Below are positions 14,780-24,570 of a DNA stretch of 64,000 nt, piece after piece. Position numbers and translations under genes: made by a program. Location of the stretch: contig NZ_JACETV010000001.1 in assembly GCF_013912375.1 (NCBI RefSeq), forward strand, positions 1,116,001 through 1,180,000. The letters are read 5' to 3'. This DNA comes from Emticicia sp. BO119. Lineage in GTDB: Bacteria > Bacteroidota > Bacteroidia > Cytophagales > Spirosomataceae. The number at the start of each line of letters is the position of its first letter. The first letter of the stretch is position 1. Under the pieces are notes generated by a model that saw only the letters and a list, made by a program, of their open reading frames with translations, was not told where the DNA came from and made no database searches.

Positions 14780-14816
14780 GTTTACAGGAGTTCTTAATTT
14801 AAGCTATTTAAAATAA

Positions 14817-14841
14817 AATCCCGCTTCTTAAAAGCGGGATT
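14817..14841 (-). terminator. Terminator of acs
   Basis: AATCCCGCTT and AAGCGGGATT form a 10-base perfect stem with a 5-base loop just after the acs stop; on the minus strand it is followed by a T-rich tract. Confidence 0.75.
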
Positions 14842-14866
14842 TCTCAAACAAAAAATAGTTATAAAG

Positions 14867-16768
14867 TTACCGCATCTGCTGTGCTCCATTTTTTATCTCC
14901 TCAACCACATTAGGGTCAAGAAGAGTAGAGGTGTCACCTAAATTAGTCGTCTCGCCCTCAGCAATTTTCCTTAAAATACGACGCATAATTTTGCCGGAAC
15001 GTGTTTTGGGCAAGCCACTTACAAACTGAATTTTATCGGGTTTGGCAATCGGGCCGATTACACGTGAAACGGTGGCCAGGATGTCTTTACGGGTTAACTC
15101 CAGATCATTCATATGAGTTTCACAAATTACATAAGCATAGATGCCTTGTCCTTTAATATCATGTGGGTAACCTACCACAGCCGATTCAACCACCCCTGTG
15201 TGCATATTGATAGCGTTTTCAACTTCGGCTGTCCCAATTCTATGTCCTGACACATTCAATACGTCATCTACACGACCTGTGATTCTATAAAAACCGTTTT
15301 CGTCGCGCATGGCGCCATCACCCGTAAAATACAGGTCAGGATACGCGGCAAAATAGTTGGTACGGCATCGTTCATGGTCTCCCCAGGTGGTACGGATAGT
15401 AGATGGCCATGGGAATTTAATACATAAATTACCACTGACATTGCCACCTAAAATCTCATTACCGTTTTCGTCAACCAGCAACATCTGCACACCCGGTAAC
15501 GGGAGTGAAGCCCAGGCCGGTTTCAAAGGAGTGATGCCTGCTAATGCTGAAATCAGGATACCTCCGGTTTCAGTTTGCCACCATGTATCTACAACCGGAC
15601 AATTGTCTTTTCCGATATTTTTAGAATACCAGTGCCAGGCTTCTTCATTGATGGGTTCGCCGACCGAACCTAATATTTTAAGGGAACTTAAATCTTTACC
15701 TTCAACATATTCAGTTCCGAAACCCATTAAAGAGCGAATAGCCGTAGGGGCTGTATAAAGTATGTTTACACTATGTTTTTCGACAATTTCCCAGAATCTT
15801 CCTGCATCGGGATATGTAGGGATTCCTTCAAACATCAATGAAATGGCACCGCATGCTAAGGGTCCATACACGATGTAGGAATGTCCGGTTATCCAGCCTA
15901 TATCAGCAGTGCAGAAATGAACCATACCTGCTTTATACTGAAATACATTCATAAAAGTATAAGCTGTGTAGACCATGTAGCCCCCACAGGTATGCACTAC
16001 TCCTTTGGGTTTTCCGGTAGAGCCAGAAGTATAAAGTATAAACAATGGGTCTTCTGAGTCCATTTCTTCAGCAGGGCAATCAGAATTTACAAATTTTACT
16101 TCTTCTTCCCACCAAACATCCCGACCTTTTATCATGCTAACAGGGGTACGGGTGCGTGTTGCTACAATTACTTTTTTAACCGACGGACATCCGATTAAAG
16201 CATCATCGACTGTATCTTTCATCGGAATAGTCTTGTTTCCCCTTACGGCTCCGTCTGTCGTAATTACTGCTATACACTGAGAGTCATTGATACGGTCGGC
16301 AATAGAAGAGGCCGAAAAACCACCAAATACTACTGAATGAATGGCCCCGATACGCGCACAAGCCAAAGTAGCAATGGCTAATTCAGGAATCATGGGCATA
16401 TATATGCAAACCCTATCACCTTTTTTTACTCCATTGCGTTTGAGCACATTGGCAAAGCTGCATACACGGTCAAATAACTGACGGTAGGTAAGGGTAATAC
16501 TATCTTCACCAGGGTCGTTAGGTTCCCAGATAATAGCAGGCTGGTGAGGTTTTTCTCTTACATGTCGGTCGAGGCAGTTTTCGGTTATATTCAGTTTGCC
16601 GCCAACAAACCATTGTATTTTAGGTTCTTTAAAATTCCAGTCTAATACTTTTGTCCAGGGTTTTTTCCATTCAAAATTATTGGCAGCAATTTCAGCCCAG
16701 AAGCCTTCAGGGTCTTGCACACTTGCCTCATAGGCTTTTTGATACTCTTCGTAGGTTTGAATAAGCAT
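14867..16768 (-). CDS. acs: Acetyl-CoA synthetase
   Basis: 633 residues, full length for AMP-forming acetate-CoA ligase, which activates acetate to acetyl-CoA via acetyl-AMP. The AMP-binding core motif YTSGSTGKPKGV, the substrate-pocket segment VDTWWQTETGG, and the C-terminal PKTRSGKIMRR, which holds the catalytic lysine that is acetylated in relatives, are all present. It lies downstream of a same-strand transporter operon but is separated by an 82-base spacer. A role in scavenging acetate fits; the acetoacetate produced by FahA would need a different activating enzyme. Confidence 0.96.
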   Translation of the reverse strand: MLIQTYEEYQKAYEASVQDPEGFWAEIAANNFEWKKPWTKVLDWNFKEPKIQWFVGGKLNITENCLDRHVREKPHQPAIIWEPNDPGEDSITLTYRQLFDRVCSFANVLKRNGVKKGDRVCIYMPMIPELAIATLACARIGAIHSVVFGGFSASSIADRINDSQCIAVITTDGAVRGNKTIPMKDTVDDALIGCPSVKKVIVATRTRTPVSMIKGRDVWWEEEVKFVNSDCPAEEMDSEDPLFILYTSGSTGKPKGVVHTCGGYMVYTAYTFMNVFQYKAGMVHFCTADIGWITGHSYIVYGPLACGAISLMFEGIPTYPDAGRFWEIVEKHSVNILYTAPTAIRSLMGFGTEYVEGKDLSSLKILGSVGEPINEEAWHWYSKNIGKDNCPVVDTWWQTETGGILISALAGITPLKPAWASLPLPGVQMLLVDENGNEILGGNVSGNLCIKFPWPSTIRTTWGDHERCRTNYFAAYPDLYFTGDGAMRDENGFYRITGRVDDVLNVSGHRIGTAEVENAINMHTGVVESAVVGYPHDIKGQGIYAYVICETHMNDLELTRKDILATVSRVIGPIAKPDKIQFVSGLPKTRSGKIMRRILRKIAEGETTNLGDTSTLLDPNVVEEIKNGAQQMR

Positions 16769-16850: not shown

Positions 16851-17903
16851 TTATCCTACAATCCAACTGCCCACTTTAGGAATTTTGCTGATAATTTTTA
16901 CTATCAGGTAGCTGATAACAACAGTTATCAGAAAATGAGCAGAAATTCCGACTAATGGGTGAATCCATGTAAAATTTATCTGGTATTCTCTTGATAATAT
17001 CCTCAAAATTAAGGCATGAGCCAGATAGATACCATAGCTTGTCGTATCTAATTCGGTCATAACTTTGGGCAGAAAATCCACATTGCAAGTTTTCTGAAAC
17101 AATAAAAATATGAAAACAGACATCAGCATTACAGGAAGACTTAAATAATCTGTATAATCATATATGTATTTTCCAGCCTGCCACGAAACTGTATAACAAA
17201 TATAAGCTATTAGTGCCCAGGATGCTAAAAATAAGAGGATAAGCACAATTTTTGAGAGTTTTGTGCCAGAATTACCTAACCAATATCCTAATACGAAGTA
17301 GCCAACAAAGCCTGTGAAATACCTGATGTCAAATTTAATTTCAAATCCCAACCACTTGTTTACTAAAGTGTAAACTACATTGCCAACTACCCACAAGAAT
17401 ATAAAATAGCTGATTTCATTGCGCCGGGCATCATGATTTCGGCTATTTTCTGTGCCTTTAATCCATCGGCTGATAACCGGAGTAAAAGTATAAATGCCTA
17501 AAAGCATATACACAAACCATAAATGCCCTGCACCACCACCGCCACCGGTTAATATTTTCTTTACAAAATCACCAACAGTCCAGAGGGTTCTTTCATTGGC
17601 TAAACCCTTAAAATTAGACCAGATAATATAAATCAGACTCCAGATAAGAAAGGGCACAAAAATACGGGTAAAGCGTTTTTTGAGAAAACTATTTAACTCT
17701 TCATACTTGCCAATGAGTAAATAGCCTGAAAGCATGACAAATACAGGGACGGCAAATCGGCCAAAAACGTTGATGATATGGCAAATCCACCAGTCTGAAT
17801 AAGGAATTTTCTTAACATGCAACGAACCATAGCCCGCTGCATGTAATAAAATAACTGTGAGCGTTGCAAAAACCCGGAGGTTTGTTACCCAATATTTTTT
17901 CAT
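16851..17903 (-). CDS. Acyltransferase family 3 membrane protein
   Basis: 350 residues with about ten hydrophobic helices and the N-terminal RVFATLTVILLHAAGYG stretch, whose histidine matches the conserved catalytic one of the OafA/acyltransferase-3 family. Members transfer acetyl or succinyl groups to surface polysaccharides, peptidoglycan or antibiotics at the inner membrane. Its ATG overlaps the stop of the preceding small membrane gene by four bases (ATGA), so translation is probably coupled and the two belong to one operon with the MHS transporter. Acceptor unknown. Confidence 0.85.
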   Translation of the reverse strand: MKKYWVTNLRVFATLTVILLHAAGYGSLHVKKIPYSDWWICHIINVFGRFAVPVFVMLSGYLLIGKYEELNSFLKKRFTRIFVPFLIWSLIYIIWSNFKGLANERTLWTVGDFVKKILTGGGGGAGHLWFVYMLLGIYTFTPVISRWIKGTENSRNHDARRNEISYFIFLWVVGNVVYTLVNKWLGFEIKFDIRYFTGFVGYFVLGYWLGNSGTKLSKIVLILLFLASWALIAYICYTVSWQAGKYIYDYTDYLSLPVMLMSVFIFLLFQKTCNVDFLPKVMTELDTTSYGIYLAHALILRILSREYQINFTWIHPLVGISAHFLITVVISYLIVKIISKIPKVGSWIVG

Positions 17904-18133
17904 AGTTTTTCACCATCTCTGGTGCTATACTCTCCTTGTAAGGCATAGTAGCCGAATACAGACATTCCAAAAGAAATGATAGGGGCCAGAATAAAAGTAT
18001 AGATAATAGCAGGTACAAGATCATTGCCTCCGGTCTTCCATAGGGGTAATGCCTGAAAGTAAATTAAGTAAATTCCGGCACTCACACCTATTAGAATCCA
18101 CAAAATACCTAATGCTTTTCTGATTGCGTTCAT
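17900..18133 (-). CDS. Small two-helix membrane protein, partner of the MHS transporter
   Basis: 77 residues with two hydrophobic segments (about 8-27 and 42-62) and a polar tail. It lies 12 bases after the transporter gene and overlaps the acyltransferase start by four bases. It resembles the small DUF6814-type proteins that accompany MFS transporters in Bacteroidota, a match made from memory. It is probably an accessory or stabilising subunit of the transporter. Confidence 0.65.
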   Translation of the reverse strand: MNAIRKALGILWILIGVSAGIYLIYFQALPLWKTGGNDLVPAIIYTFILAPIISFGMSVFGYYALQGEYSTRDGEKL

Positions 18134-18145
18134 AGTTTTTAAGGG

Positions 18146-19708
18146 TTAGTCGTGAATATTTCTGTCTTTTCCATTAATGTAGATCAATCCGATTACAAAG
18201 CATACCCCAGCAATGATAATAGGATAGTATAAACCTTGCAGATAGGGTTTATCAAATACCATTGCCTGCCCTGCTGCTTTCGCTTTAGTATTTATATCGT
18301 TTGCCTGTGTAGCCAGAAAAGTAGCAATAGCAGGCATTAAACCTCCGAATACTCCATTGCCGATATGGTAGGGCAGAGACATTGAAGAATACCGGATTTT
18401 AGTCGGAAACATTTCAACCAGAAAAGCTGCAATAGGGCCATAGGCCATTGTAACAAATATAATCAGGCAGAATACCAGTAGTACCAGTGTCCACTTATCG
18501 GTGTTGTTAATAGTAATGGTCTTTTTGGTTTCTGCTTTTGGTGGTGTAACAGATTTATCAGCCAGATTAGTGGTTTTTATTACTTCTTTCATAATGGTTC
18601 CATCTTCATAGTCGTGCATGGTTGTAGTTGTTACTACCGAATCTGCGATGGTTTTAGCAATCAGTTCTACCTGAATATTTGTTTTATCAGTAGTATTAAT
18701 TTCTATTTTGTTAGCAACATTAACTGTCTGATAAATTTTGTCAAAGATAGGTCTATATAGTAATACAGCTAATAACATTCCGGCGAGCATAATGCCTTTT
18801 CTACCGATTTTATCAGACAAGGCTCCGAATACAATAAAGAAAGGAGTACCCATAATTAAGGCCCACATCATGATACTATTGGCCTGAACATCATCAATGT
18901 TACAGGTCTTTAACAGGAAACTCTGGGCATAGAACTGGCCTGTGTACCACACTACTCCCTGTCCCATTGTAGCTCCAAAAAGGGCTAATAAGACAAACTT
19001 GAAATTCAGTTTGTTGCCAAATGATTCTTTTAGCGGATTGGTTGAGATTTTTCCTTCTTTTTTTGCTTTTTCAAACAGGGGCGATTCTGACATATTACGG
19101 CGAATCAGGAAAGAAACTAATACCATCAGAATAGATACAAGGAAGGGTAAACGCCATCCCCATTCATCAAAAGCCTCTTTCGACATGGAAGTTCGTGTAA
19201 TCATAATCACGCCTAATGATACAAATAGCCCTACTGTAGCTGTGGTTTGTATCCAGGAGGTCCAGTAACCTCTTTTATGGACTGGTGAGTGCTCGGCTAC
19301 ATAGGTGGCGGCACCGCCGTATTCACCACCTAATGCCAGGCCTTGTAATAATCTCAGCAAAAGAACCAGAATAGGAGCTAATGCACCAATGGTTTGATAA
19401 CTTGGTATAAGTCCAATGGCGAAGGTAGCCCCTCCCATTAGCAAGAGAGTAACCATGAAAGTATATTTCCGGCCGATTAAATCACCTAAACGGCCAAACA
19501 CCAAAGCCCCAAACGGCCTTACAACAAAACCTGCGGCAAAAGTGGCAAGAGTATTTAGAAAACCCGCCGTGGGGTTATCGGTCGGGAAAAACTTTGAAGC
19601 TAAAACTGTGGCAAGGCTACCAAAAATGTAAAAGTCGTACCATTCAATAAGCGTACCTACTGACGAAGCGCCAATAATGTAGCCCAAACTTTGCTTTTTT
19701 TGAGACAT
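18146..19708 (-). CDS. MFS transporter of the metabolite:H+ symporter (MHS) type
   Basis: 520 residues in the ProP/ShiA-like MHS branch: GTLIEWYDFYIFG at the N-terminus, GRLGDLIGRK in the loop after the second helices, and GGEYGGAATYVAEH. It should import a carboxylate or zwitterion with protons. Unlike common relatives (about 430-460 residues), it has an insertion of roughly 80 residues (about 320-400), rich in Thr, Lys and Asp, between the cytoplasmic loop after helix 8 and the next helix. It lies 51 bases after the InsA-like gene and 12 before the small membrane gene, in one operon. Substrate not determinable. Confidence 0.88.
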   Translation of the reverse strand: MSQKKQSLGYIIGASSVGTLIEWYDFYIFGSLATVLASKFFPTDNPTAGFLNTLATFAAGFVVRPFGALVFGRLGDLIGRKYTFMVTLLLMGGATFAIGLIPSYQTIGALAPILVLLLRLLQGLALGGEYGGAATYVAEHSPVHKRGYWTSWIQTTATVGLFVSLGVIMITRTSMSKEAFDEWGWRLPFLVSILMVLVSFLIRRNMSESPLFEKAKKEGKISTNPLKESFGNKLNFKFVLLALFGATMGQGVVWYTGQFYAQSFLLKTCNIDDVQANSIMMWALIMGTPFFIVFGALSDKIGRKGIMLAGMLLAVLLYRPIFDKIYQTVNVANKIEINTTDKTNIQVELIAKTIADSVVTTTTMHDYEDGTIMKEVIKTTNLADKSVTPPKAETKKTITINNTDKWTLVLLVFCLIIFVTMAYGPIAAFLVEMFPTKIRYSSMSLPYHIGNGVFGGLMPAIATFLATQANDINTKAKAAGQAMVFDKPYLQGLYYPIIIAGVCFVIGLIYINGKDRNIHD

Positions 19709-19759
19709 GTACTAATAGTTTAAGGGAATAGATTGATATTTTAATGGTTGGTTGCTGTT

Positions 19760-20182
19760 TTACTTTTTTGTACGTTCCCACTTGATAAGCATAAATTTAT
19801 CATCAATTTCGGTTACTGTAACGCCAATGCCACGCAGATTTTCTCTGTTGGCATAAAATTCGATTAGTTCGGCGTAGGTCAGAATGAGTGTGCTTGGCCT
19901 GTAATTGTTTTTTCTGCCGGGAATTATGATCTGATATTTTCTGACCCAGTTCATTACAGAAACATGGCTAATACCCAAAAGTCGTTCAATTTCACGGAAA
20001 CTGAGGCCCTCTAAATACAATTGTAACGCTTTTGTTACAAAATAGCCTTCGATACTTTTACCCAATTTATCAACGGTAAAATTGTATCCACAGTCTTTGC
20101 ATTTGTAACGCTGCTTTTCTTTGACGATCCCATTTCTGGAAATATTGTTAGAATCACATTGAGGGCAGTGAGGGAGTTCCAT
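19760..20182 (-). CDS. InsA-like zinc-ribbon/HTH protein, probably a domesticated transposase module
   Basis: 140 residues. The N-terminus has a zinc ribbon with Cys6, Cys9, Cys28 and Cys31 (CPQC and CKDCG). This is followed by a helix-turn-helix (about 60-83; LSFREIERLLGISHVSVMNW), as in the IS1 InsA protein. A C-terminal domain of about 55 residues follows. No InsB catalytic frame and no terminal inverted repeats are visible nearby. The gene heads an operon with the MHS transporter under a consensus promoter, which points to a transcription regulator derived from a transposase rather than a mobile element. The target is unknown. Confidence 0.75.
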   Translation of the reverse strand: MELPHCPQCDSNNISRNGIVKEKQRYKCKDCGYNFTVDKLGKSIEGYFVTKALQLYLEGLSFREIERLLGISHVSVMNWVRKYQIIIPGRKNNYRPSTLILTYAELIEFYANRENLRGIGVTVTEIDDKFMLIKWERTKK

Positions 20183-20493
20183 TGTGTTCTATAGTTTTTT
20201 AGCAAAGATAATTTTTTTTAGGAGCATACAAAGTTTCAACTTAATATTATATTTCATAGCACGGTATAGTTAAACTTTGCTATTTTCTATTATTAATGAT
20301 AATTAAAGCCGAATATTTATCATTTATGAAACTCTTGTCGGCATAAGTCAAGGTTTTTTTCGGTAAAATAAAAAAGACAAATTTTTTTGAAAAGTATAAA
20401 TCCGGTTTTCTAAAGTCTCCGTATATATGTTTGATTAGGTAATCAACTTTATAGAAAAAAACTGAATAGCCATTTAAACTAAAACCCAAATGA
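20183..20493. other. Intergenic spacer upstream of the InsA-like operon
   Basis: About 310 AT-rich bases. It carries the minus-strand promoter of the InsA-like operon near its left end and a plus-strand TATGTTTG (20426-20433) that could be the -7 element of the structured region to the right. A 69-codon minus-strand frame (20280-20489) is present but has no family resemblance and is not called. Confidence 0.5.
20203..20232 (-). promoter_or_regulatory. Promoter of the InsA-like/MHS operon
   Basis: On the minus strand TTTG (20229-20232) and TATCTTTG (20203-20210) are spaced by 18 bases, a close match to TTTG-N-TAnnTTTG. The start codon is 20 bases further on, so the leader is very short. Confidence 0.6.
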
Positions 20494-20804
20494 AGTCTTT
20501 AATAGCAGGTTACTGCTATTAAAGACTATTTGAGTAATAACTTAATTGAAAACAATGATGCTATGATTTACGCTCTTGTTCACTTTTCGACTGGTGCGAA
20601 ATAGTTGTAAGCTTGGAGTAGCTTAGTCGGATGTGCTTGAGCAAAAGAAGTGAGTAACAACTTTTGCTAAAACCAGAACGACTGCCAGAGTATTAACCTG
20701 TTATAAAAGAGTTAGAGAAACGAATACTTTTAGTGCAGTGCATTTCAGTTACGTAATCCGCAAAGTAAAAGCCCTAAAGAGAAAATCTTAGGGCTTATTT
20801 TTTT
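20494..20804 (+). ncRNA. Candidate structured RNA (no known family recognised)
   Basis: A gene-free stretch of about 310 bases with many nested stems. 20494-20508/20513-20527 is a perfect 15-base stem with loop GTTA. CTGGT 20591-20595 pairs with ACCAG 20672-20676 and encloses two hairpins (TAAGCT/AGCTTA at 20608-20625; AGCAAAAG/CTTTTGCT at 20640-20668). ACTGC and AGTATT (20681-20694) pair with AATACT and GCAGT (20723-20739). A terminator at 20769-20804 ends the stretch. A TAnnTTTG element lies at 20426-20433. It is not tmRNA, RNase P RNA or SRP RNA by their hallmark words. It could be a non-coding RNA on the plus strand, or chance structure ahead of a shared terminator. Confidence 0.35.
20769..20804 (+). 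terminator. Terminator, probably bidirectional
   Basis: AAGCCCTAA and TTAGGGCTT form the stem (one bulged A on the left side) with seven T on the plus strand. On the minus strand it lies just after the porin stop and is followed by TTTT, so it can also end the porin transcript. Confidence 0.7.
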
Positions 20805-20824: not shown

Positions 20825-22144
20825 TTAATTGAAAAATACCTGATATTGAATAATTGCCGAGCCTTTTCTGCTACTGGATTCGCCTTTGTTGTTACTATCG
20901 GTTAAGAAGAGGGGTCTGTCCTGATAAGCAAGAGTCAGTTTAGAATTATGGCCATTTAATAGCCAGACCACCCCAAAATCATAGAAGTTCATTCGCTGAT
21001 TCAAGCGTTCATAATCGGCATGCTGGAAAGAAATATAAGGTAAAAGTGTAGTTTTGCCAATCAGGTTATCCTTGAATTTATAACCTATCTGCGTATAAAA
21101 GACATTACCAGTTCCGTAAGCCGGAAATCCATTGCCTGAACCATTAATCAGGTCTTTTCTGGAACTCCCGTTGGCAGGGTTCATTACTGCAAGATTACGA
21201 AGGTAGTTTTTGCCAAAATCAAAGTATCCGAGAGAAGCATAGGCACTTATAGACTGGCCTTCGGCACCTACAGGTGCATCATAATAGGCATCTAATGCTA
21301 ATTGTACCATACTGGTTTGAACTGTATCGATTTTATTTGCAGCTAATGTCCACATGGCTTCAGGCTGATAAACGAATCCAGCGCCTATATTGAAAACCTT
21401 TTTTTTGCCAAGGTATGTGCCAGTCATATAAGGTGTAAGGTTGCTTTCCTGTTCAAGAAACTGCCATTGGAAATAGCCATTCCACTGAAACCTGGGTGGT
21501 TTTGAAGAAAAATTGGCAATATCGGCACTTAATACACTATTATAAGAGGCAGCTTTCTGAAAAGCCATTGGGTCTGATAAGGCAAGTCGATAATCAAATT
21601 TACCTAATTTGCCTTTGGCGTAGACCGATAGTTTCCTTAAGAACTGATCTGTGATATCGTTGGTTGATTGCTGATACAGAGGAGCATCAACACCTAATAT
21701 ACTTCCGACTGAAGGAGATGCAAAACGAGCCAGTCCACTCCAGGCAGCTAATCCACCTCCTAAAGAAAGTTTGTTTTTAATAAGCACATATTCACCCAGG
21801 GCATCGTGAATAAAGAAGCCAAATTTACGGTCTGAAATGCCATTAAAGTTGTTTTCTCCAAACTGGCTGTAAATAAAGACTCTATCAGTCAGTTGCCCAT
21901 AAAATTGGATTCTGAAACGACGGATGCCAATATCCCATTTATTAGAAGAGGCATATCCAAAAATCGTTGAGCCCTCATTTAACTGTGTGTTACGCAACCA
22001 GGCCTGATTTACCATTGTAAGTTTTACATAACGAGAGCCGTCATCATTGAGTGTCAGTTTTCCATCTTTTAAAACCTGTGCCTGCAAAAACAGCGGAGAT
22101 GAAACAATGATGAGATATAAAAAGACAGTTTTAGCAAATTTCAT
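20825..22144 (-). CDS. Outer membrane porin-like beta-barrel protein
   Basis: 439 residues from the ATG complementary to 22142-22144; eight upstream residues from 22168 would precede the signal peptide and are not favoured. A signal peptide ends near LFLQAQ. The rest alternates short aromatic beta strands with turns and ends in QYQVFFN, a C-terminal aromatic typical of outer membrane barrels. It resembles phosphate-selective-porin-type families. It lies 200 bases after carbonic anhydrase on the same strand, so it may serve anion or bicarbonate passage with SulP; this is inference. Confidence 0.75.
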   Translation of the reverse strand: MKFAKTVFLYLIIVSSPLFLQAQVLKDGKLTLNDDGSRYVKLTMVNQAWLRNTQLNEGSTIFGYASSNKWDIGIRRFRIQFYGQLTDRVFIYSQFGENNFNGISDRKFGFFIHDALGEYVLIKNKLSLGGGLAAWSGLARFASPSVGSILGVDAPLYQQSTNDITDQFLRKLSVYAKGKLGKFDYRLALSDPMAFQKAASYNSVLSADIANFSSKPPRFQWNGYFQWQFLEQESNLTPYMTGTYLGKKKVFNIGAGFVYQPEAMWTLAANKIDTVQTSMVQLALDAYYDAPVGAEGQSISAYASLGYFDFGKNYLRNLAVMNPANGSSRKDLINGSGNGFPAYGTGNVFYTQIGYKFKDNLIGKTTLLPYISFQHADYERLNQRMNFYDFGVVWLLNGHNSKLTLAYQDRPLFLTDSNNKGESSSRKGSAIIQYQVFFN

Positions 22145-22285
22145 AAGATTATCTTCGGTGTGATTCAATAAAAATTGTTTAACTGATTGGACCTGAGCCT
22201 GAGAGTACGTAACAACAGATTCTTTTAGTTAAAATTTATTAAGTTGGCAGTCTTTGAGTAGCTTATTAAAATAAAGACGCCTAAA

Positions 22286-22346: not shown

Positions 22347-23021
22347 TTATTTTTTCACCTCTTCAACTTTTTTGTTTTTTGTCTTATTGAAGTCAAAGTT
22401 ATAAACGTCTTCTAAAGCATCGTTGTCTTTTGAATCTATCTCAATAATAGTCTTAATAAGACCCGAGTGCAAATTAAGTACCCAACCATGTAATTTTGGA
22501 TATTCATCGTTGTTCCACGCGTTTTGTACAATCGTAGTTTTAGCGAGGTTTTTTACCTGTTCTATTACATTAACTTCCACTAACCGGTCAAAACGTTCCT
22601 TGTCATCATCAATGCTTTGCAGCTCGTCCTGGTATTTTGCATAGACATCCTTTATATTGCGCAGCCAGTTATTAATCAATCCATAATCATTGTTGGTCAT
22701 AGATGCTTTTACGCCCCCACATTGATAATGACCTACTACCAGAATATGCTTTACTTTCAATACTTCAACGGCATATTGTAATACACTTAGCATACTCATG
22801 TCAGTATGTATGACTAAATTAGCGACATTGCGGTGTACAAAAATTTCACCAGGTTGTGTACCTGTTACCTGATCGGCAGGTACACGGCTGTCCGAACAGC
22901 CAATCCAAAGAAATTCGGGTTTCTGATCGGCAGCTAAGTTGGTAAAATAGGTAGGGTCTAACTGAAGTTTTTCAGCTGCCCATGCTTTATTAGCTAACAA
23001 GAGTTTTTGATACGATTCCAT
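22347..23021 (-). CDS. can: Beta-class carbonic anhydrase
   Basis: 224 residues. Beta carbonic anhydrases interconvert CO2 and bicarbonate with a zinc held by two Cys and one His. All ligands are visible: Cys42 with Asp44 and Arg46 in GCSDSRVPAD, and His98 and Cys101 in HYQCGGV. The C-terminus is Lys-rich. Its start overlaps the end of the SulP transporter gene by 32 bases in another frame, indicating one mRNA and coupled translation. Together they look like a bicarbonate uptake or CO2 balance unit. Confidence 0.95.
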   Translation of the reverse strand: MESYQKLLLANKAWAAEKLQLDPTYFTNLAADQKPEFLWIGCSDSRVPADQVTGTQPGEIFVHRNVANLVIHTDMSMLSVLQYAVEVLKVKHILVVGHYQCGGVKASMTNNDYGLINNWLRNIKDVYAKYQDELQSIDDDKERFDRLVEVNVIEQVKNLAKTTIVQNAWNNDEYPKLHGWVLNLHSGLIKTIIEIDSKDNDALEDVYNFDFNKTKNKKVEEVKK

Positions 23022-24570
23022 CGCTTTTTCTATAATTTAATTTTCTTCTTTTAATATTTTTAAATTCAATATTGATATGTCTGACTTTGGCTTCTGTCTG
23101 AAACTCTTCTAAAGTAAGGAATATATCATGATCAATAAAGGTGGTTTTGCTGCCATCAACCAAAACCTGGTCACCAGACTTTAATGTGGCCAGATTTTGC
23201 ATTAACTCCGATTTATTGAAGTAGAAAATGTCTTTATTGAAGGTAATTAACACGTTTTTATCTTGTCTTACGACAGTCATTGAACCTTTATAGTTGGTAT
23301 AGAGAATATATATCATGGCTATGGCCACACCTATGGCTATGCCAGTAAGCAAATCTGTAAATACAACGGCTAAAACCGTTATTATAAAAGGCACAAACTG
23401 GTCTGGACCTTCTTTAAACATTGATTTGAACATACTTGGTTTTGCCAGTTTGTAGCCTACCATAATCAGAACCGCTGCTAAAGAGGCAAGCGGAATGAGA
23501 TTAAGCAAACCCGGAATACTTAAAGTACAGACCAGAAGGATAATACCATGAATGATTGCTGATAATTTTGATTTATTGCCAGACTGGATATTAGCAGAAC
23601 TACGGACAATAACCTGGGTAACTGGCAAACCTCCTATTAAACCTGAAATAATGTTACCAGAGCCCTGGGCTATTAATTCACGATTGGTTGGAGTGAGTCG
23701 GCTTTGTGGGTCTAATTTGTCAGTTGCTTCGACAGAGAGGAGGGTTTCAAGGCTGGCAACAATGGCAATTACAAAAGCAGTTTTCCAGATAAGTGGATTG
23801 GATATAGCAGAAAAATCGGGAAAGACTAAGAAACTTGTAATATCAGATAGAGAATTAGTAACAGGTAAGTTTACTAAATGATTATTCTGTAAATGAAAGT
23901 TAGGAGGTAATATACTCAAGCCACTGTTTAAAAATACACCTAATAGTACAGCAAGGAGAGGACCCGGAACAATACTTAAAATTTTGTTTCTTTTGATGAA
24001 GTCTGTATCCCAAAATATCAAAACAAGTATAGAAATGACTCCAATAATCAGCGCGCCTTCATTCAGGCGATCGGTGATGTTTAATAACTCTGAGAAAGTG
24101 TTTTCGCCATCTTTCTGAATAAAGTTTTCATCTCCTTCGTAATCCTGATCAATACCGAAAACATGGGGAATTTGTTTCAGAATAATAATAATGCCTATAG
24201 CCGTGAGCATACCTTTGATTACGGAAGAAGGGAAGTAGTAACCTATAACACCGGCTTTGACTGCTCCAAGAATAATCTGAATGAATCCGGCTAAAACCAC
24301 AGCAAGAATGAAGGAATCAAATGCACCTAATTCTGTGATGGCGTTGAGCACTATAACGGTAAGGCCGGCAGCAGGCCCAGCTACACCTACTTGTGAGCCA
24401 CTAATGGCACCAACTACTATACCACCCACTATGCCTGCAACGACCCCTGAAATTAACGGTGCTCCAGAAGCCAGGGCTATACCTAAGCAAAGTGGGAGTG
24501 CAACCAGAAAGACCACAAGCCCAGATGGGAAATCATGTTTCAGATTTGAAAAGTTTAATAATGATTTCAT
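22990..24570 (-). CDS. SulP-family anion transporter
   Basis: 526 residues: about twelve to fourteen hydrophobic segments in the SulP fold (GLVVFLVALPLCLGIALASG, VAGPAAGLTVIVLNA, GLIGGLPVTQVIVRSSANIQSG). A C-terminal cytoplasmic STAS-like domain follows (about 430-510). SulP proteins move sulfate, bicarbonate or dicarboxylates. The overlapping carbonic anhydrase gene downstream favours bicarbonate as substrate, a known pairing in this family. The spacer upstream (24571-24762) is AT-rich with small hairpins. Confidence 0.88.
   Translation of the reverse strand: MKSLLNFSNLKHDFPSGLVVFLVALPLCLGIALASGAPLISGVVAGIVGGIVVGAISGSQVGVAGPAAGLTVIVLNAITELGAFDSFILAVVLAGFIQIILGAVKAGVIGYYFPSSVIKGMLTAIGIIIILKQIPHVFGIDQDYEGDENFIQKDGENTFSELLNITDRLNEGALIIGVISILVLIFWDTDFIKRNKILSIVPGPLLAVLLGVFLNSGLSILPPNFHLQNNHLVNLPVTNSLSDITSFLVFPDFSAISNPLIWKTAFVIAIVASLETLLSVEATDKLDPQSRLTPTNRELIAQGSGNIISGLIGGLPVTQVIVRSSANIQSGNKSKLSAIIHGIILLVCTLSIPGLLNLIPLASLAAVLIMVGYKLAKPSMFKSMFKEGPDQFVPFIITVLAVVFTDLLTGIAIGVAIAMIYILYTNYKGSMTVVRQDKNVLITFNKDIFYFNKSELMQNLATLKSGDQVLVDGSKTTFIDHDIFLTLEEFQTEAKVRHINIEFKNIKRRKLNYRKSDGIVSKTLVS

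Follow-up and report, generated by a model that had tools for sequence, protein, structure and literature searches.

A transposase-derived protein of Emticicia and its relatives as a probable regulator of acetate uptake and activation

At positions 19760-20182 (minus strand) of a 64,000-nucleotide stretch of Emticicia sp. BO119 (contig NZ_JACETV010000001.1, positions 1,116,001 to 1,180,000; hereafter the window) lies a gene for a 140-residue protein, here called REG, that is related to InsA of the insertion sequence IS1. We think it probable that REG is a domesticated InsA autorepressor that has kept its specificity for terminal repeats and would control a locus for the uptake and activation of acetate. 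Its ancestry, single copy, purifying selection and linkage, the conservation of its putative site and the likeness of that site to the ends of the nearest IS1 elements were all computed directly. An earlier note on this DNA had proposed a domesticated regulator for uptake of a carboxylate or similar compound. Our results favour such a regulator, with regulation itself deduced from sequence, and narrow the substrate to acetate.

REG consists of a zinc ribbon (about residues 1-38), a helix-turn-helix (HTH; 46-82) and a conserved C-terminal region (94-137), which agrees with the earlier description of an InsA-like protein with intact Cys residues. It scores 49.3 bits against the NCBIfam model of the IS1/IS1595 zinc domain (NF050000, cut-off 28), and Cys 6, 9, 28 and 31 are invariant among 29 aligned sequences, as are Y94, P96, E105, L106, G120, E125, D128, I133, W135 and R137 in the C-terminal stretch. 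Against the model of the full IS1 transposase (NF033558), aligned over residues 6-129, the score is 84.2 bits, below the cut-off of 100. No InsB or DDE domain was found in the same or an overlapping frame; the next genes encode a transporter or a porin and are not InsB-like, so that the reported lack of an InsB partner stands. The AlphaFold model of REG (pLDDT 85, pTM 0.63) gave zero Foldseek matches at E <= 0.001, and the best E value of a sequence search of the PDB was 0.053. VIA-align returned mostly HTH rows (GcrA, with Z 7.5 over 44 residues at a root-mean-square deviation of 1.4; the IstA transposase; Pax), a few weak ribbon rows (NrdR, Z 5.7) and one row for residues 92-140 (Z 5.1), all with Z below 8.

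In a tree of 86 InsA-type domains, the REG clade (44 rows plus L161, which adjoins a porin) has a support of 98/97 and is nested within IS1 InsA; the tree has 93 columns, long branches and an unsettled bootstrap, and its deeper forks are unsure. The window genome holds a single full-length copy, the next match having an E value of 0.014. Across the phylum, 31 of 392 genomes match REG at E <= 1e-20, each exactly once; the match in G247 proved to be an IS1 element (L153) that carries terminal repeats itself, which leaves 30 of 392 genomes with REG. Among 58 related genomes, 24 match at E <= 1e-40, again with one copy each. The nonsynonymous over synonymous divergence (dN/dS) is 0.036/1.45 and 0.064/2.23 against two congeners, with dS near saturation, 0.003/0.175 for a Flavobacterium pair and 0/0.22 for a Flavobacteriaceae pair; REG is under strong purifying selection. 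It thus shows what is expected of a domesticated regulator, namely one clade, a single copy, purifying selection and a fixed place in a host operon. The several copies per genome that are usual for IS1, if not obligatory, are not seen, and many copies in one genome with flanking repeats, which the earlier note had named as the mark of a live element, were looked for and not found. The same note had reported no terminal repeats. This holds for the flanks, as no IS-like repeat pair with target duplication surrounds REG in the window, but the REG promoter does contain two copies, one good and the other decayed, of a sequence that resembles the terminal repeat of the nearest IS1 elements whose ends could be defined.

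The surroundings of REG are conserved. From 499 stretches that encode REG relatives we kept the best 80 (55-94% identity), which belong to Bacteroidota as far as their titles tell. A symporter lies downstream on the REG strand in 76 of the 77 loci with at least 2 kb of downstream sequence; it is of the MHS type in 46 and of the DUF4212/VC_2705 type in 30, and no locus has both. A porin gene is found downstream in 68 of these 77 loci, in many of them between REG and the symporter. Of the 72 loci that extend for at least 4.5 kb, 65 continue with a gene for a CrbS-like kinase that has an SSS domain; the seven exceptions comprise five from the Emticicia group, L064, where the kinase gene lies upstream of REG, and L079. 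The window genome contains no SSS-fused histidine kinase and no close match to the receiver/response regulator. For a wider view we used longer regions from 20 genomes, hand-picked from about 51 REG-bearing genomes and not drawn at random: acs, the gene for acetyl-CoA synthetase, is present in all 19 regions uncut by a contig end, at most 11.4 kb from REG and twice divergently upstream, and kinase and receiver are both present in 18 of the 19. Genes for malate synthase, isocitrate lyase and a RamB-like protein (55.9 bits against NF038139, cut-off 700) adjoin several loci of Arcicella, Flectobacillus and Pseudarcicella. The survey of gene neighbourhoods that the earlier note had suggested therefore finds REG in single copy, kept before a symporter, with acs in the locus and dN far below dS.

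The earlier note had also suggested a search for a DNA site upstream of the operon, and this revealed a conserved tandem. In nearly all loci a direct repeat with a 19-bp period (TTTGCTAA-N5-TATA) lies 5' of REG. In 74 of 80 upstream sequences (79 loci and the window) a pair of TTTGCTAA-like words reaches a score of 13 of 16 or more, as compared with 57 of 800 first-order shuffles, and 71 of these 74 repeats have a spacing of exactly 19 where 19-24 was allowed. L086, whose REG was missed in the calling of open reading frames, was excluded from this set; its site was found by the matrix. The first unit mostly starts 37-66 bp upstream of the REG ATG. A 42-bp matrix made from 43 distinct sites gave 91 matches in the 1.85 million positions of the 80 loci, and all but one weak match in L079 are the REG site or its reverse reading. 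A strict pattern run over 60 whole genomes, of which 34 have REG, matched 27 times, 22 times beside REG (22 of the 34 REG genomes); the five matches away from REG compare with four for a reversed control, which is chance level. No operator was found in 13 same-type loci from genomes that lack REG (best score 3.9). In L213 and L221 the tandem is placed 3' of REG, before the transporter or porin. In the window, the 42-bp tandem site (20190-20231, minus strand) scores 28.0, whereas the runner-up in the window reaches 10.4 and none of 20 shuffled windows exceeds 15.3. Its second unit, TTGCTAAAAAACTATAG (20189-20205, minus strand), is intact with a unit score of 17.5, and the first unit, CTCCTAAAAAAAATTAT (20208-20224, minus strand), 19 bp from it, is decayed with a score of 6.5.

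This putative operator resembles the ends of those IS1 elements whose InsA is closest to REG. We defined the ends of 18 IS1 elements, 17 of the phylum and IS1A of E. coli, of which 8 have 8-bp target duplications, and scored both ends at one fixed register with a 17-bp matrix built from REG sites alone. In the four elements with the highest InsA-to-REG score both ends score above 0 and rank 1-5 among the 1420-1496 17-mers of the element, whereas both ends score below 0 in the other 14 (-14.6/-20.0 for E. coli IS1A). Examples of operator-like ends are GGCATTGTTAATTTAATATAG (L029, with an 8-bp duplication) and GGCATTGTTAATTAGTTATAG (L153, no duplication seen). An operator-like left end also lies 35-54 bp before insA in seven more loci (L156, L186, L199, L205, L206, L208 and L211), several of which are copies within one genome; the operator of REG has a comparable position. 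A further 47 loci fall in a list without ends, outside the 18, which includes REG orthologues and repeats of elements already counted. The InsA-type protein at the contig end of L201 groups in the tree as the sister of REG (98/91) and has one operator-like unit 75 bp upstream (score 10.4); it could be a link between element and regulator. The window genome has a real IS1-type element elsewhere (G000:C12:466788-467374; L139, L002), with an 8-bp target duplication and with ends, such as GGTATTGTACTGAAATGTATGATG, that are unlike the REG operator.

Units of the same kind occur before other genes of the locus. In the 250 bp before acs, a unit scoring at least 12 is present in 9 of 27 loci, as compared with 2 of 270 shuffles. 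One of these, in L227, is the REG tandem read from a divergent acs; without this locus the count is 8 of 26, and seven of the eight remaining units are inverted relative to acs. At the same threshold the control upstreams gave 1 of 59 for MHS, 0 of 37 for SSS, 0 of 84 for kinase and 0 of 26 for receiver genes. Loci whose gene start was unreached or aligned late were dropped from this test, and usable porin upstreams numbered only 8 (2 of 8 at 12 or more), so the interval between REG and the next gene was used instead. Once 10 loci with less than 40 bp between REG and the next gene had been dropped, a unit was found in 17 of 89 intervals, inverted in 15, as compared with 6 of 890 shuffles. Given the sites before acs and porin and the displaced tandems of L213 and L221, the operon, and not the REG gene alone, seems to be the target.

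Most likely, REG would bind the 17-bp units, TTGCTAA-N5-TATA(G/T), arranged in tandem with a 19-bp period on its own promoter, and in some loci it may bind single inverted units before porin and acs as well. Sitting there, it would repress acetate entry (porin), import (MHS-DUF6814 or DUF4212-VC_2705) and activation (Acs), until a signal of acetate use relieved the repression; the CrbS-like kinase is a candidate sensor. Autorepression is the simplest inference because REG and InsA of E. coli agree in their domain, in the kind of site and in its place. Binding by REG, repression rather than activation, acetate as the signal and control of acs are the steps that we infer. The substrate of the locus is most likely acetate and not a generic carboxylate, since the locus contains acs and elsewhere also the CrbS-like kinase, malate synthase, isocitrate lyase and the RamB-like protein. 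That two unrelated importers fill one slot while acs is kept likewise points to acetate as their common substrate.

A number of observations weigh against this account. In L079 (6001-6417), the single locus of the 77 that has no symporter downstream, REG stands without operon or operator; its sequence is identical to that of L194 over the part used in the tree, which suggests a stray copy or a moved regulator. The locus set counts some organisms twice, for example L059/L215 and L082/L231. The best repeat of L114 lies at -151, the site of L218 is weak (11.7), and none was found within the 49 bp upstream examined in L230. The window itself is a weak example of the operator pattern: one of its two units is decayed, and hence the strict pattern has no match in its genome, and the regions upstream of acs (best 1.9) and MHS (-2.5) contain no unit, nor is any other of the extra acs and porin sites present. 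The window genome shows no enrichment of single units (26, as compared with 27 for the reversed pattern), and in the 20 of 26 surroundings examined no 42-mer besides that of REG (28.0) exceeds 5.2; a wider single-unit regulon in this genome is not claimed, as its matches do not outnumber those of the control. Coverage by units is partial, at about a third of loci for acs and a fifth for the stretch after REG, and five acs genes of REG-less genomes reach up to 10.4, near the line of 12. On the side of the elements, L190, L188/L031, L197/L135, L200 and L204 (InsA scores 45-62, other clade) have no operator-like left end, and that of L185 (InsA score 74) was not resolved. The split of 4 to 14 covers only elements with definable ends, and the Spearman correlation over the 18 elements, 0.51 with p 0.03, comes from elements that are not independent.

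Another reading makes REG the DNA-binding output of the CrbS-like kinase and a receiver-only regulator, with the phosphorylated receiver acting on REG. In the 14 of 18 loci where its open reading frame is readable, the receiver has 118-134 residues and, unlike CrbR, no DNA-binding part, and kinase and REG tend to occur together: of 392 genomes, 27 have both, 13 the kinase only and 3 REG only, besides G247 with its IS1 match only (both counts were made at equal settings, and shared handles point to the same 392 genomes in both). This co-occurrence tracks phylogeny, since all 13 kinase-only genomes are of other classes. Within Emticicia, the score of the operator pair lies at 35.2-38.5 in three loci that have both kinase and receiver, at 12.6 and 25.3 in two that have the receiver only, and at 3.2-25.4 in four that have neither; the first three have two good units, and the first unit is weak in the loci without the kinase, the window included. 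The series is a single genus, though, with few independent events, and REG persists in the window genome and in three relatives that have neither kinase nor receiver. Moreover, among the 13 kinase loci that lack REG, all seven with a readable receiver frame have a receiver-only regulator, which argues that REG did not replace a lost output domain. We therefore hold this reading to be rather unlikely. It is less plausible still that acetate is secondary and that REG controls another short carboxylate or a mixed diet. Our searches did not establish what this MHS transporter and the VC_2705 symporter carry, but acs is the constant partner of the two, Acs scores 948 bits as an acetate-CoA ligase and 612 bits, below a cut-off of 955, against the best propionate-CoA ligase model, and glyoxylate-shunt genes and the RamB-like protein adjoin in Arcicella and Flectobacillus relatives.

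We see little room for the idea that REG is a passenger and that the tandem motif serves as a promoter or belongs to another protein as its operator. The motif is AT-rich and overlaps the -7 box (TATATTTG lies inside it), yet TTTG recurs at 19 bp, not at the -33/-7 spacing of about 27 that we take to be usual (26 in the window). The tandem is also missing from the same-type loci without REG and at chance level away from REG, it follows REG in L213 and L221, and the nearest IS1 elements whose ends were defined terminate in similar sequence. The kinship of REG with InsA, the IS1-like sites nearby in the family and the presence of L139 in the window genome would fit an IS1 remnant in decay or an element that still moves. 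We give this reading of REG hardly any credence in view of the single copy, the low dN/dS, the one clade with a conserved place, the missing DDE domain and the conserved C-terminus.

As for how a domesticated InsA autorepressor may have come to head this locus, the arrangement of sites, forward ones upstream of the gene and inverted ones downstream, reproduces the layout of IS1 and is the ground for supposing that repressor and operator were captured jointly. It is tempting to speculate, with somewhat less than even confidence, that an ancestor of Cytophagales and Flavobacteriales acquired an IS1 element in front of a porin/symporter operon for acetate, that this element lost insB, that its left end, later doubled, and its right end became operators, and that the end copies before acs came later. 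If so, the negative feedback loop of a transposon would have turned into a carbon-source regulator that at least two bacterial orders have retained. The route from an IS1 subgroup to a host circuit, later losses included, can be traced jointly for protein, binding site and target operon, which opens the path from selfish autorepressor to metabolic switch to bench tests. In Flavobacterium and Cytophagales, REG is a candidate for the regulator of acetate use and the tandem for its operator.

In the window the genes run on the minus strand in the order porin-like gene, REG, MHS transporter, DUF6814, acyltransferase and acs. The porin-like outer-membrane protein (20825-22168, 447 residues) has a weak match to the ExtI porin model (33.4 bits, cut-off 150) and none in Pfam. 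In the REG promoter a putative -33 box, TTTG (20229-20232), and a putative -7 box, TATCTTTG (20203-20210), both on the minus strand, fit what we take to be the Bacteroidota consensus TTG/TAnnTTTG, and the operator overlaps the -7 box. The MFS transporter (18146-19708, 520 residues) begins 51 bp after REG (19760 to 19708), as the earlier note had stated; the MHS type given there agrees with its best model, TIGR00883 (MHS metabolite/H+ symporter), although its 370.6 bits fall below the cut-off of 443.45. The small membrane protein and overlapping acyltransferase described earlier are a 77-residue DUF6814 protein (PF20664; 17900-18133; 88 bits, cut-off 25) and an acyltransferase of family 3 (PF01757; 16851-17903), whose start shares ATGA with the DUF6814 stop. 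The order given for this operon was right, but its end at the acyltransferase is in doubt: acs (14867-16768, 633 residues; TIGR02188, 948.5 bits, cut-off 724.95) follows on the same strand after 82 bp and has a terminator-like stem of 13 pairs 3' of it (14815-14843, minus strand), so the transcription unit plausibly reaches acs. A second such stem lies between porin and REG (20769-20796, minus strand); terminator-like stems are not enriched in the region (5, as compared with a shuffle mean of 6.1).

Other genes near REG vary between groups. Genes for a carbonic anhydrase and a SulP-type transporter (22347-24570 in the window) lie 5' of REG or porin in most Emticicia-group loci (L035-L042) and perhaps supply bicarbonate. 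The acyltransferase gene stands between the symporter genes and acs in the window and in L035-L037 and L041-L043 of Emticicia; the thought that it replaces the kinase there was dropped, as L044 of Pseudarcicella has the start of a similar gene together with the kinase. A 64-residue membrane-type protein (cluster c2, for example L099:9760-9954) is encoded 5' of the SSS-kinase gene in many loci; its representative has no Pfam or NCBIfam match, and weak matches to it occur in 8 of the 13 kinase loci without REG. In Flavobacterium-type loci (L085, L088, L089, L091, L097, L101-L104, L108, L110, L112 and L114) a divergent cluster lies 5' of REG, with what we take to be genes for a flavin reductase-like protein, an FAD/old-yellow-type fusion and an AMP ligase, presumably akin to an aromatic acyl-CoA pathway.

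In E. coli, InsA of IS1 binds both terminal repeats and represses a promoter that overlaps the left one, according to the available part of PMC12428005. REG resembles that protein (IS1A, NC_000913) in its zinc ribbon and HTH and in a promoter-overlapping site just before the gene, and part of its family has forward sites upstream and inverted sites downstream as in IS1. It differs in having no InsB, no mobility, a C-terminal region of its own and a tandem in place of a single upstream site, whose sequence matches some Cytophagales IS1 elements and not E. coli IS1A. The loci of the window's relatives recall the CrbS/CrbR acetate switch, in which, as the accessible portion of PMC5715377 has it, an SSS-fused kinase, a response regulator, a symporter and acs form one set and CrbR is a LuxR-type activator. 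Unlike that switch, the REG loci have a receiver-only regulator (14 readable relatives) and an InsA-derived protein at their head, and the window genome has neither kinase nor receiver. The RamB-like regulator found next to some loci, matched by an acetate-regulator model (NF038139), has an XRE HTH and is a protein unrelated to REG.

Transposase-derived regulators are well known in eukaryotes. The co-option of mobile-element regulators is already known in bacteria too, with Ner/SfsB and antitoxins as examples and phages and toxin-antitoxin systems as sources in the parts of the review PMC8987985 at hand, whose text does not contain the terms IS1 and InsA. Among the papers listed by full-text searches of open-licence PubMed Central articles, none dealt with an InsA-derived acetate regulator, and within the reach of those searches an IS1 repressor with an end sequence as its operator is new. 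Like the co-opted regulators of that review, as far as its consulted sections describe them, REG would be a mobile-element regulator recruited to host carbon metabolism, with a transposase operon as its source.

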